Below, in pieces: positions 36,031 to 45,554 of a stretch of DNA of 45,554 nt. The stretch lies in IMG/VR virus record IMGVR_UViG_3300021090_000044, positions 1-45,554 of that record, one strand, 5' to 3'. Positions within the stretch are counted from its first letter, which is position 1; every line of letters begins with the position of its first letter. This DNA comes from a virus. A program made the position numbers and the translations under genes. Below the pieces are notes generated by a model. It made no database searches. It was not told the origin of the DNA and saw only the letters and a program-made list of their open reading frames with translations.

Positions 36031-37478
36031 TGGCTAGAATTCCGTTTCCGCTGTCATCTTCACCGGGAGCAACGCCACAAGAGAGCGCCGGAAGGCTTAT
36101 CAATTGCTATGCGGAGCCATTGGGAAAGGTAATCGAGTCCGACAAGAAAACCGCGCCGCCTCCCGTGGTCTGGCGCAAATGTCCGGGGCTGGCCCTGTTC
36201 GGCGCGTCAGGGGCGCAGACCGGTTTTCGTGGGGCTATCCTCGTTGATAACACGCTATACGCGGCGTGGTCCGGCAAGGTATCGCGGTTCGATTCGGCGG
36301 CCGTTGAAACGCTCCTTACCGGTGCGCTAACCGGAACGGAAAAGGTCTTTTGGGCAAGGAATAACAAGGCTACTCCAGACGTTGTGTGCGTGGCGCCGGG
36401 AACTGGTGCATTCACGGTCACCACTGCGGCCGTGTCCAGCTTTGCGGATACTGACGTTGGCGCTCCAAACAGCGTCGGGTTCATGGATGGCTATTTCATC
36501 TTCACGTCAGGAGACGGAACACTTCAGGCGTCTGGCTTGAACGATGTCACGATCAACACGCTCGACAAGACGAAGGCGCAATCGAAGCCCGGGGGGCTGA
36601 CGCGAGGCCTGCCGTTCAATGGGCAGTATTATGCGCTTGGGCCGGCCTTCGGTGAGGTATATGCGAATACGGCTAATCCTACCGGGTTTCCGTTCACGCG
36701 GTCCTACGTGCTGCAGAGGGGCTTATTGAGCCCTTACGCGATTGCTGGTCATGAGGACGGCTTTGGATCGTCGCTGATCTGGGTTGCGGATGATAATTCT
36801 GTGGTGCAGGCCAATGGCACACCGAACCCGCTGAAGATATCGCCGCCCGATCTCGATCGGTTAATTGCTGTGGTCACGACCAAATCGACGATAGAGGCCT
36901 TCGTCGAAATTGCGCAGGGTCATCCGAAATTGGTTGTTAAATGCCCCGCATGGTGCTGGGAGTTTGATCTTGGTTCGCAAAAATGGAACGAGCGCAGAAG
37001 TTACCTGGTCGATACATGGCGCGCTGTTGCTAGTTGTCGCGCCTTCGGCAAGTGGATCGTGGGTGACGCTGCGCTAGGTCGGCTGCTTTACGTAAGCGAC
37101 ACGGCATATGACGAATACGGCTCTCCCCTCGCGTTTCATATTGAGAGTGGTCCGGTTCTTAGTTTCCCGCATCGGACTAGGGTGGCGAGAGCGGACTTTT
37201 TCTTCGTTACCGGAGTCGGAAATGCGCAAGGCTCCGACCCAACCGACACTGATCCAGAGGTTGGCATCTCATGGTCGGATGACGGAGGCTATACCTGGAG
37301 TAATGAAATAACCCGCAAACTTGGCCGGCAAGCTACGCCGCAGCGCGTAACCGTTTTCAGAACTGGAATGACGGGTGTTGAAGGCCGCCGTTGGCGACTG
37401 AGGGTTACTGCAAATGTTTATGTAGGTTTCATGGGCGGATCACAAAGCGCCACCCTTATGAGGGCTGACCCGAAATGA
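36030..37478 (+). CDS. Tail hub, P22 gp10-like
   Basis: A 482-residue protein with a GTG start: A-R-I-P-F-P-L-S-S-S-P-G-A-T-P-Q-E-S-A-G-R-L-I-N-C-Y-A-E. The S-x-x-x-x-x-x-x-R-x-x-N-C-Y-x-E opening and length match P22 gp10 (472), the packaged DNA stabilisation protein. It forms a hexameric beta-propeller hub to which tailspikes attach. Later W-S-D-D-G-G-Y-T-W-S-N-E is a propeller-type blade motif. Confidence 0.85.
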   Translation: MARIPFPLSSSPGATPQESAGRLINCYAEPLGKVIESDKKTAPPPVVWRKCPGLALFGASGAQTGFRGAILVDNTLYAAWSGKVSRFDSAAVETLLTGALTGTEKVFWARNNKATPDVVCVAPGTGAFTVTTAAVSSFADTDVGAPNSVGFMDGYFIFTSGDGTLQASGLNDVTINTLDKTKAQSKPGGLTRGLPFNGQYYALGPAFGEVYANTANPTGFPFTRSYVLQRGLLSPYAIAGHEDGFGSSLIWVADDNSVVQANGTPNPLKISPPDLDRLIAVVTTKSTIEAFVEIAQGHPKLVVKCPAWCWEFDLGSQKWNERRSYLVDTWRAVASCRAFGKWIVGDAALGRLLYVSDTAYDEYGSPLAFHIESGPVLSFPHRTRVARADFFFVTGVGNAQGSDPTDTDPEVGISWSDDGGYTWSNEITRKLGRQATPQRVTVFRTGMTGVEGRRWRLRVTANVYVGFMGGSQSATLMRADPK

Positions 37479-37672
37479 GCAAACCACTTCCGGGTCCGGA
37501 TGTTCCGATGATCGACCCCAAAACAGGGTTCGTGACACAGACTTGGTATGAATATTTCCAATCTCGCAAGGGGCTGGCGAACTTGCCTGACGTTTCGACG
37601 ACTGCGCCGACAAATGGTCAGGTGCTTATCTACAATTCGACAACTCAGCTCTGGACTCCGGGAGCCAATTGA
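37475..37672 (+). CDS. Small tail protein
   Basis: A 65-residue protein: M-S-K-P-L-P-G-P-D-V-P-M-I-D-P-K-T-G, then Y-E-Y-F-Q-S-R-K-G-L-A-N-L-P-D-V-S and N-G-Q-V-L-I-Y-N-S-T-T-Q-L-W. The ending is the start of a common tail-fibre connector repeat (G-Q-x-L-x-Y-N-x-x-T-x-x-W). May be the N-terminal piece of a longer tail protein separated by the homing endonuclease gene. Confidence 0.6.
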   Translation: MSKPLPGPDVPMIDPKTGFVTQTWYEYFQSRKGLANLPDVSTTAPTNGQVLIYNSTTQLWTPGAN

Positions 37673-38214
37673 TGGGCCGTCGCTCTGACATCAAGCCGCT
37701 TCCGTCGCTGGAGCGGTTGAATGCGCTGCTCTCATATGACGAGAGCGCAGGCACTCTGACGTGGAAGATGCAGCCAGATACGTCGCGCTCCAACATCAAC
37801 TTCAATAACAAATGCGGCGGCAAGATTGCTGGAACGGTTGGCGCTAAGGGTTATCTCATTATCGGTATTGGCAAGGTCTACTATCTTGCTCACCGCATCA
37901 TCTGGAAAATGAAAACTGGCGTCGATCCGACCGACATCATTGATCACGAAGATACTGTCAGACTCAATAACCGATGGCTGAACCTTCGCGATGCGGCAAA
38001 TGGCCCGAACATTCAGAATAGTAAAATTCGCAAGGATAATAAGAGCGGTGTCAAGGGAGTTTTCTGGGACCCGACGCATAAGGCATGGGTTGCCGCGATC
38101 GGGGTCAATGGAAAGCAGACACGTCTAGGGCGCTTTAAAGATATCAACCAAGCGAGCGAAGCACGCCGTATTGCATCTGAAAAGATGCACGGTCAGTTCG
38201 CCCGCCTAGCCTGA
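37672..38214 (+). CDS. HNH homing endonuclease with AP2-type DNA-binding domain
   Basis: A 180-residue protein in the tail module. N-terminal part G-Y-L-I-I-G-I-G-K-V-Y-Y-L-A-H-R-I-I-W, then I-I-D-H-E-D-T-V-R-L-N-N-R-W-L-N-L-R-D-A (HNH_3 metal site) and an AP2-like end (K-S-G-V-K-G-V-F-W-D-P...W-V-A-A-I-G-V-N-G). Such free-standing endonucleases are selfish invaders of phage genomes. The ATG forms a TGATG overlap with the previous gene. Confidence 0.85.
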   Translation: MGRRSDIKPLPSLERLNALLSYDESAGTLTWKMQPDTSRSNINFNNKCGGKIAGTVGAKGYLIIGIGKVYYLAHRIIWKMKTGVDPTDIIDHEDTVRLNNRWLNLRDAANGPNIQNSKIRKDNKSGVKGVFWDPTHKAWVAAIGVNGKQTRLGRFKDINQASEARRIASEKMHGQFARLA

Positions 38215-38226
38215 TAGGAGGCTGTC

Positions 38227-38886
38227 ATCGGGCTCTTCGATATTTTCAGCAACGACACGGCAGAGAAAGCCGCTGCCCAGCGCAATCAGGGTCTTCAGCA
38301 GGGCTATGACACGCTGTCTGGCCTCTATGGTCAAGGACGCGATGCGATCAACACGGGTGCTGCTACGGCGACAGGTTACTATCAGCCGCTGATAGACAAG
38401 TACGGATCGGGTTCGAATGCCTATGGAGATGCGAGCGGAGCCAATGGTGCGGAAGGTCTTCAAAGGGCGACAGACACTTACAAGAACTCTGGTCAATACG
38501 GTAGCTATGGTGTCGGCCTTAGTGAGGGACTTCAGGCACTCCAGCGCACGCATGCCGCGGCAGGTAACCTAAGCAGTGGCAATGCCGATACCGATTCCAT
38601 CAAGTATGCGCAGGACCAGGCAAGCAAGTCATATAACAGCTATCTATCCGGGCTTCAGCCGTATCTTGGTGCCGAGCAGGGCGCAGTGAGTGGGGCAGCG
38701 GGTGTTGCCACAGGGCAGGCCGGCGCGCTCAACCAGTCCTATCAGGGCCAGGGCAATGCCGCGAACGCCAATTACACGGGACAGGGCGCATCGACAGCGG
38801 CAGCCACGATGAACGACTATAACATTTCAAAGAACACGTGGGATGCGATCGGCAAGGGCGCCAGCTTGTTCTCGGCGTTTATCTGA
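38227..38886 (+). CDS. Ejection-type structural protein, probable ATC start
   Basis: From 38227 the frame runs 219 codons without a stop: I-G-L-F-D-I-F-S-N-D-T-A-E-K-A-A-A, later Y-G-S-G-S-N-A-Y-G-D-A-S-G and N-Y-T-G-Q-G-A-S-T. No ATG or TTG occurs in frame and the first GTG is at 38686. GGAGG (38217-38221) lies exactly 5 nt before the ATC, a textbook spacing, so the ATC is the probable start. Gly/Tyr/Ala-rich composition and position before two large internal proteins suit a P22 gp7/gp20-type ejection protein. Stop overlaps the next ATG. Confidence 0.7.
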   Translation: MGLFDIFSNDTAEKAAAQRNQGLQQGYDTLSGLYGQGRDAINTGAATATGYYQPLIDKYGSGSNAYGDASGANGAEGLQRATDTYKNSGQYGSYGVGLSEGLQALQRTHAAAGNLSSGNADTDSIKYAQDQASKSYNSYLSGLQPYLGAEQGAVSGAAGVATGQAGALNQSYQGQGNAANANYTGQGASTAAATMNDYNISKNTWDAIGKGASLFSAFI

Positions 38887-40403
38887 TGGCAGATATTGAC
38901 CAAATCCTTGCGGGTGGTTCTGGCGCAGGTTCGCGTTACGACTTCTCTACATTCGGCGATCCTGTAAAGGCTTATTACGACGCCAACAAGATGCGCGCCG
39001 AAAAGGATTTGCGTGAATCTTTCAAAGGTGGTGTTACAACGCTTCCTGACGGATCGATCGACTACGCTTCGATGCAGCGCACGCTGTACCAGAAAGGCGC
39101 TCTAGACCAAGGTAATGCGCTTTCAGGTATTTCGGCGCGTGCTGGGGAACTGGAGGCGTTGCGGGGGGCAGACAGCGCACAGCCGACTGTAGGACCATCG
39201 ACCTCGCGCAATACCGTAATGCCGGACCCCGGCAAGCGGATGGATGCCCAGCCCTCTCAAGCGGCTTCAGCTGCCGAGCAGCCCACCGTCATGAAAATTC
39301 TTGCGGCGCAGGGCATTCCCAACAGCGAACTGGAAAGGGCTTCGGCGTCCGTAGCTCGTCAGTTGGGAGTGGACCCGACCGCGCCGCTCAATCTGCAGGA
39401 TCCGCAAGTTAGGAACGTGCTGGCGCCAGCCGTTGCCCAGATCAAGCGCATGGGGCTCGGTCAGGTACAGCCGCCGCAGCCGGGCGATAATCCGCCTCAA
39501 GGTGCCCCGCAAGCGCCGGTTATGGCGCAAGCACAGGCACAGGGATTCCAGCCCCCGCCGAATGTGGTAGCTGCCCAGAACGATCCGATACTTAAACGGC
39601 TGACATTGCTCACGGCCAGTCAGGACAAGAACATCGCTGCAGCGGCGAAGGTCCGCCTGGAATCATATCTGAAGAACCAGGAATCCACTGGTCCGATGAA
39701 GGAGTATCAAAAGGCTACCAGCCAGGGCTTTAAAGGAACATTCGAGGACTGGCAGAACCGCGGTGATGAAAACACCACCGAGCGCGATATCCTGACCAAG
39801 AGCTTGTTGCCAAAGATCGACAAATCTCAGGAGGCTGCTACCGCAGCGAAGGACGACATCAGCGCTATCCATCGTGCCCGTGAGGAGCTGGACCAGAGCG
39901 GTGGCGTTTTTGCTGGTCAGTTCGCCGATAAAATGAAGTTTGCGGCAAAGGTTGGTGCGTTCTTTGGTATTCCTGACGACGGCAAGATCAAGAATACTGA
40001 GGCCTATGGAGCTGCAATCGGTTCCCGCGTGGCATCCATGGTCAAGGCATTCGGTAGTGGAACCGCTATCTCGGACGGCGACCGCAGGTTTGCGTCGGCT
40101 ATGGCGGGCGGCGAAATTAACCTCGATGAAAAATCAATGCGTCGCATTCTTGATATCGGCGAGCAGGCTGCACGCGGCAAGATTGGCCAGCACAATACTC
40201 TTACCGATAAGATCGTTGGAGCCAACAAGGCGCTGAAGGACGCCCGCGACACGTACATCGTAGAAGCGCCGGGGGCATACAAGAAGCCCGCGACGGCCAA
40301 GACTGCTGCTACGCAGTCGGTTGCCTCCAAGGCGGATTACGACAAATTGCCCACAGGCTCAGTATTCACCGGACCGGACGGGAAGCAATGGCGGAAACAG
40401 TAA
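38886..40403 (+). CDS. Internal virion / DNA ejection protein
   Basis: A 505-residue protein: M-A-D-I-D-Q-I-L-A-G-G-S-G-A-G-S-R, Ala/Gln-rich centre (P-P-Q-G-A-P-Q-A-P), then helical parts and a short W-R-K-Q end. A tail of P-P-x-P-Q and D-G-S-V-F-T-G-P-D-G-K-Q-W-R-K. The order after the gp10-like hub matches ejection proteins. Injected with DNA; no enzymatic motif seen. ATGA-type overlap before it. Confidence 0.65.
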   Translation: MADIDQILAGGSGAGSRYDFSTFGDPVKAYYDANKMRAEKDLRESFKGGVTTLPDGSIDYASMQRTLYQKGALDQGNALSGISARAGELEALRGADSAQPTVGPSTSRNTVMPDPGKRMDAQPSQAASAAEQPTVMKILAAQGIPNSELERASASVARQLGVDPTAPLNLQDPQVRNVLAPAVAQIKRMGLGQVQPPQPGDNPPQGAPQAPVMAQAQAQGFQPPPNVVAAQNDPILKRLTLLTASQDKNIAAAAKVRLESYLKNQESTGPMKEYQKATSQGFKGTFEDWQNRGDENTTERDILTKSLLPKIDKSQEAATAAKDDISAIHRAREELDQSGGVFAGQFADKMKFAAKVGAFFGIPDDGKIKNTEAYGAAIGSRVASMVKAFGSGTAISDGDRRFASAMAGGEINLDEKSMRRILDIGEQAARGKIGQHNTLTDKIVGANKALKDARDTYIVEAPGAYKKPATAKTAATQSVASKADYDKLPTGSVFTGPDGKQWRKQ

Positions 40404-45088: not shown

Positions 45089-45554
45089 ATGACGTGGCGA
45101 CTTGCACACGCCCTCGAAACCCTGCGTTCTCAGGTGAACGCCAAGTGGCCGAACCGGAGTAAGGACAGCGATGGCAGCATAGGTGATGAAGGTCACTCGG
45201 CCCGGACCTCGGATCACAACCCGGATGACCATGGCGTGGTACGGGCAATCGACATCACCCACGATCCGAAGGGCGGCTTTGATTCCTATGCCTTTGCCGA
45301 CATGCTCCTGAAAAATCAGGACCGCCGGATGAAGTATGTCATCTCGAACCGTAGGATAGGCTCAGGCCCAGCAGGACAGTCGCCGGGCCAGTGGCGCAAG
45401 TATACCGGCACCAACCCGCACGATCATCATTGCCACATCAGCGCGGTCCCTGACGCCCGTGGGGACGATACCAGCGCCTGGGACATCGGAGGTTATCAGA
45501 TCGGGCCCGCCGTCGAGCCCTATGTGCCGCCGCCCAAACCGCTCCGCACAGGAT
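45089..45554 (+). CDS. Endolysin, N-terminal part (zinc peptidase domain)
   Basis: The 5' part of the endolysin; continues at base 1. Starts M-T-W-R-L-A-H-A-L-E-T-L with CGGAG upstream. Zinc-peptidase pattern: H-S-A-R-T-S-D-H-N-P (His43), R-A-I-D-I-T (Asp55), and N-P-H-D-H-H-C-H-I-S (His116), as in M15/VanY-type and related endolysin peptidases that cut peptide cross-links. Bases 45419-45554 repeat 1-136. Fusion to a C-terminal peptidoglycan-binding domain is usual. Confidence 0.85.
   Translation, partial: MTWRLAHALETLRSQVNAKWPNRSKDSDGSIGDEGHSARTSDHNPDDHGVVRAIDITHDPKGGFDSYAFADMLLKNQDRRMKYVISNRRIGSGPAGQSPGQWRKYTGTNPHDHHCHISAVPDARGDDTSAWDIGGYQIGPAVEPYVPPPKPLRTG
45419..45554. repeat. Terminal overlap identical to bases 1-136 (2 mismatches)
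   Basis: Base 45419 corresponds to base 1. Mismatches are at 45422 (g, against t at 4) and 45549 (c, against a at 131), each within 6 bases of a contig end. The frame of the endolysin runs through. This is the signature of an assembled circular or terminally redundant molecule, not a biological repeat. Confidence 0.9.

Follow-up and report, generated by a model that had tools for sequence, protein, structure and literature searches.

The window, i.e., the whole 45,554-nt stretch of viral DNA that was analysed, carries a gene whose frame opens with AUC, directly downstream of a homing-endonuclease gene. The window is bounded, a few bases from each end (5–130 and 45423–45548), by the two copies of a perfect 126-bp direct repeat, so that this 45.5-kb record, classed as linear, is probably a complete and circularly closable genome. 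The features of the locus are as follows.

37475–37672, + strand: small tail-type gene, upstream of the endonuclease gene
37672–38214, + strand: HNH (AP2-type) homing-endonuclease gene, with HNH_3 and AP2 domains (phrog_99)
38212–38217, + strand: tandem in-frame stops TGA TAG; TGA (38212–38214) ends the endonuclease gene, TAG is 38215–38217
38216–38221, + strand: Shine-Dalgarno (SD) sequence AGGAGG, 5 nt upstream of the start; GGAGG is 38217–38221
38222–38226, + strand: spacer CTGTC; CTGTC, CTGCC and CTCCC recur in relatives
38227–38886, + strand: probable DNA-ejection protein gene, 219 codons, start AUC
38686–38688, + strand: GTG at codon 154, the first canonical in-frame start, where automatic ORF callers begin; unlikely to be the true start

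The sequence and translation of the window place the start codon, ATC, at 38227–38229 (+ strand), and the stop, TGA at 38884–38886, overlaps the ATG of the next gene (38886). The first-pass annotation had described a GGAGG 5 nt ahead of this ATC, right after the endonuclease stop, and a 219-codon open frame whose stop overlaps the next ATG; both are seen in the sequence, and the observation of an AUC start is confirmed. With stops at −15 and −12, no in-frame start is possible upstream of the AUC. The annotation had also described the frame as free of ATG and TTG, with its first GTG 153 codons in. The GTG is found at 38686 and neither ATG nor TTG precedes it, but an ATG occurs at codon 195 and a TTG at codon 214. 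AUC, AUU and AUA starts are usually seen as a few isolated oddities, and ordinary gene-calling programs ignore them. Since calling begins at codon 154, two thirds of the ejection gene are lost, as had been anticipated, which marks an annotation blind spot in phage genomes.

Of the window's 62 stop-to-stop frames of at least 150 codons, none runs as far without a canonical start as the ejection frame. The combination of GGAGG, 4–8 nt and ATH is not enriched in the window (16 found, 20 expected); that is, the SD and ATC pair is no better than chance there, and its significance can come only from comparison with relatives. RNA structure around the window's start shows no special fold (z −0.54). 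A possible small hairpin over the SD is formed by AGCCTRATAGGAGGCT (window 38205–38224, and L025, L077, L085, L280 and L290, L numbers being our handles for loci); it is present in some members only, is not conserved across the family and is not significant in the window. A tRNA gene scan of the window found none, hence no phage-encoded special initiator tRNA.

The product of the 38227 gene is probably a DNA-ejection (injection) protein, as judged from profile similarity and gene order. The window protein matches phrog_598 (DNA ejection protein) with a profile E-value of 3.2e-5, which bears out its earlier description as a structural, ejection-type gene. The same profile is matched by eight of ten family members tested (best 1.4e-9), and by L290 at 4.9e-23. 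Upstream are P22_portal, Phage_capsid_3 and head closure Hc3 genes, the position in a P22-like podovirus module that an ejection gene would hold. By portal and head-closure proteins, the nearest cultured phages are the Pseudanabaena phages Pam1, Pam5 and Pan3 (32–41%). Among cultured phages, neither the window protein nor that of L033 found a match, and all family members are metagenomic or IMG/VR contigs.

Viral contigs yielded 22 relatives in a first protein scan, 18 with ATG and three with ATC (L001, L002 and L022), the latter in a setting like that of the window, TRATAGGAGGCTG(T/C)C-ATCGG. L009 stands apart; it has an apparent one-base insertion just past the start (2103–2130, ATGGGCTTGTTTCGAT), which probably reflects either faulty sequencing or a disrupted gene. 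The main set comes from a profile scan followed by de-duplication and comprises 79 non-redundant relatives, found by protein without reference to any motif. Their starts, all at one aligned position, are 63 AUG, 11 AUC, two AUA, two AUU and one GUG; near-cognate (AUH) starts thus make up about one fifth of the family. The AUC of the window aligns with the AUG of sister genes, and its signal recurs in many independent relatives, which upholds AUC as the true start. A one-off change of ATG to ATC, which the first-pass annotation had allowed for, does not agree with this recurrence of AUC and AUA starts.

Start codon and SD go together in the 79 protein-found relatives. GGAGG precedes 12 of the 15 near-cognate starts and one of the 64 others (p 1e-10), and the median anti-SD pairing energies are −9.9 and −6.2 kcal/mol, respectively, for a generic anti-SD tail that may not be the host's. 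Contact between the start and a stop codon is seen in none of the 15 near-cognate members versus 40 of the 64 others. The AUG starts are mostly fused to an upstream stop and have a weak SD; in AUG relatives, this stop belongs to the homologue of the small tail-type gene and overlaps the ejection AUG or lies directly against it. There are exceptions to the pairing of AUH with a strong SD: AUG follows a strong SD in a few members (L193 and L124; GAGGTGA in L118 and L140), and three AUH starts lack GGAGG. Loci found by motif show the same start and SD pattern; motif-driven counts are biased by design, and the main statistics are therefore limited to the protein-found set. Among 61,358 prokaryotic (bacterial and archaeal) AUG starts, a change to GUG is recorded 363 times, to UUG 113 times and to AUU once (PMC5622118). 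Against these rates, 15 AUH starts and a single GUG put the family far outside the norm.

The 17-base motif precedes family members (L025, L027, L032, L033 and L037) and also genes unrelated to the family, two J-like tail-tip genes (L035 and L036) in particular. When the third start base is left free after TAGGAGGCTGYC, it is C in 15 cases (13 of them gene starts), G in 19, T in four and A in one; nearly all the C and G cases are gene starts and the T and A cases are not. For the spacer variant CTCCC, nearly all of the 14 ATC matches start ejection-family genes, the seven ATG matches belong to unrelated genes and the one ATT match is not a start.

The rule that AUC comes with a strong SD is repeated in the unrelated family of tail-tip genes (J-like, phrog_5616). 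Five of these start with AUC (L292, the same as L036; L345, the same as L035; L362; L294; and L297), and their sister genes have AUG, GUG or UUG at the aligned position; the tail-tip homologues of named cultured phages start with AUG or GUG. GGAGG is present at 5/5 AUC, 0/21 AUG and 2/26 GUG starts. Overall, the weaker the tail-tip start codon, the stronger the SD (Spearman −0.50, p 1e-4, relatedness being ignored).

Codons upstream of the canonical starts are under constraint. Compared with L001–L004, the window gene has dN/dS of 0.07–0.11 over codons 2–66 and 0.05–0.06 over codons 2–153, and the constraint before the GTG is no weaker than that after it. On a protein tree of the relatives, built with the start and the first 12 residues left out, the start type must have changed 13 times, and 11 of these changes fall on well-supported branches. 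Of 11 branch-independent pairs, about 9.7 have GGAGG on the side of the near-cognate start and none shows the opposite arrangement (p about 0.002). One identical protein (codons 2–153) exists with both start types: L001 (AUC) and L003 (AUG) differ there by 22 synonymous and no nonsynonymous changes. On this tree, the near-cognate start has arisen by repeated independent switches.

Genes of this kind are known. The infC start is AUU in E. coli and AUA in S. aureus, and the infC AUU is discriminated against by IF3 (PMC9410913; PMC13009471). In S. aureus, expression from conserved AUU and AUA starts with an extended SD is about 10% of that from AUG (PMC13009471). The window gene has the two features of the infC and ccpN kind, an AUH at the position of the homologues' AUG and a strong SD at suitable spacing. 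Like infC and pcnB, the phage gene has an AUH start, which lowers initiation in those two and would do so in the phage; infC and pcnB are single host genes, however, whereas here a structural gene, mostly with AUC, has switched repeatedly to and from AUG. Similarly, cvfC1 (AUU), ccpN and citZ (AUA) of S. aureus join a near-cognate AUH to a strong SD, but they are cellular genes of Firmicutes with a conserved start type, and the phage start type switches. The extended SD pairing of S. aureus is only partly fitted by the phage spacer, which ends 3′ in GUC or AUC in about half of the family; members with CTCCC or CTGCC cannot pair with 16S GAU. In the window, the spacer's GUC may extend the pairing with 16S GAUCACCUCC. 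The compensation between start codon and SD also has a precedent, as weaker start codons accompany stronger SDs in prokaryotes (Belinky et al. 2017, PMC5622118); that work concerns GUG and UUG, with AUH switches almost absent, in contrast to the AUH-rich phage family. The principle is already known from infC and from ccpN and cvfC1 of S. aureus, while the phage setting and the repeated switching look new.

We propose, with a probability of about three in four, that in genes that have their own ribosome-binding site the AUH start counterbalances a strong SD and holds initiation at a low level. The initiator tRNA would pair imperfectly with the AUC at 38227, and the near-perfect SD 5 nt upstream would hold the 30S subunit long enough for initiation, at a low but defined rate. 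The first residue of the protein would still be fMet, and the N-terminal peptide after Met removal would be GLFDIFSNDTAEK. Two types of start would then be interchangeable across the family. In type I, the upstream stop and an AUG are fused (TGATG, CTAATG), the SD is weak or missing, and translation would occur by coupling to that stop; type II, an autonomous strong SD with AUC, AUU or AUA, would reach a similar end. Since type II has its own signal, foreign genes can be inserted ahead of it, the endonuclease in the window and other genes in L001, L022, L077, L080 and L114. Tail-tip and ejection proteins are generally low-copy parts of the virion. Type II may keep the low dose expected of a minor virion protein behind varied neighbours such as the endonuclease or extra structural genes, and this dose would be the selected trait. 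Lowered expression, which the first-pass annotation had considered, fits the pairing of a strong SD with a weak start. The comparison suggests that phages adjust the dose of a protein by pairing a strong docking site with a weak start codon. The family would offer a natural experiment on how SD strength is balanced against the start codon, and would allow a test of whether the dose of structural proteins in phages is fixed at the initiation step.

A possible, though clearly less probable, explanation is termination-reinitiation. A ribosome ending the upstream gene at UGA or UAA-UAG would be caught by the overlapping SD and restart at AUC, which would be tolerated rather than selected. The identified upstream genes do stop about 12–29 nt from the AUH start, often within the SD (UAAUAGGAGG). 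Tolerance, however, predicts that GUG and UUG would be at least as common as AUH, and the family has 15 AUH, one GUG and no UUG; in prokaryotes, AUG changed to GUG or UUG 476 times versus one AUU in 61,358 genes (PMC5622118).

It is tempting, but doubtful, to regard AUH in late structural genes as a regulatory device, in which a shift in the ratio of IF3 to ribosomes during infection raises translation and start cassettes are exchanged between unrelated genes. IF3-sensitive starts would then time or dose the ejection and tail-tip proteins. Feedback through IF3 is a feature of the infC type, and for the phage gene it is conjecture.

It is improbable that the near-cognate start is a scar of the homing endonuclease, whose imported 3′ end (TAATAGGAGGCTGTC-ATCGG) would have replaced the start, or whose target site the AUC would hide. 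An endonuclease gene is directly upstream in the window and in L033, L037, L098 and L101, and in L028 one precedes the same motif; an endonuclease lies upstream of 5/18 AUH starts versus 3/65 others, and the ATGGGCC of the window's endonuclease, equal to the start at the empty site, sits where the endonuclease-free L003 and L004 have the ejection gene's AUG. Most AUH relatives, however, have no endonuclease at the site (L001, L002, L022, L069, L077, L080, L085 and L130 have AUC or AUA starts), L014, L063 and L123 have one and keep AUG, the endonucleases at the junctions are mutually diverged, and the tail-tip AUC genes L035 and L036 follow other genes. By these comparisons, the endonuclease is neither required nor sufficient for a near-cognate start, and the endonuclease-free AUH relatives largely rule out a scar as the general cause; the suggestion that the endonuclease had reshaped this junction finds no support in these comparisons. 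Diverse HNH endonucleases recur just ahead of the ejection gene, at its 5′ border (window, L009/L065, L014, L033, L037, L063, L098, L101 and L123), which looks like an insertion hot spot.

That the true start is the GTG at 38686, where gene callers begin, the first 153 codons being untranslated or decayed, or that the ATC is a sequencing error, is scarcely credible given the strong purifying selection on codons 2–153, an N-terminus that aligns with those of sister genes starting with AUG, and the presence of this AUC in contigs of many separate metagenomes, a recurrence that excludes sequencing error. Equally hard to credit is stop-codon readthrough fusing the upstream protein to the ejection frame, with no start codon needed; the upstream gene is often in frame (stop at −15 or −12), but there are two consecutive stops, the upstream proteins are mutually unrelated, and out-of-frame upstream genes (L001, L080 and L101) rule readthrough out as a general explanation. 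An intron ending at the junction was also rejected, as the L002 motif is separated from the upstream gene by a stop and SD only.

Some motif matches (L029, L031, L039/L040/L047/L052 and L058) were judged to be chance, and the one match of a 20-base motif in a bacterial genome scan, on the antisense strand of another gene, reads likewise. In L028 (2643–2828), an endonuclease is followed by the SD-ATC motif and then by a 62-codon frame without a family match. In L278 (2329–2772), the AATAGGAGGCTCCC-ATC signal opens a frame of 148 aa that weakly resembles Rz-like spanins, a candidate for a further start of this kind.
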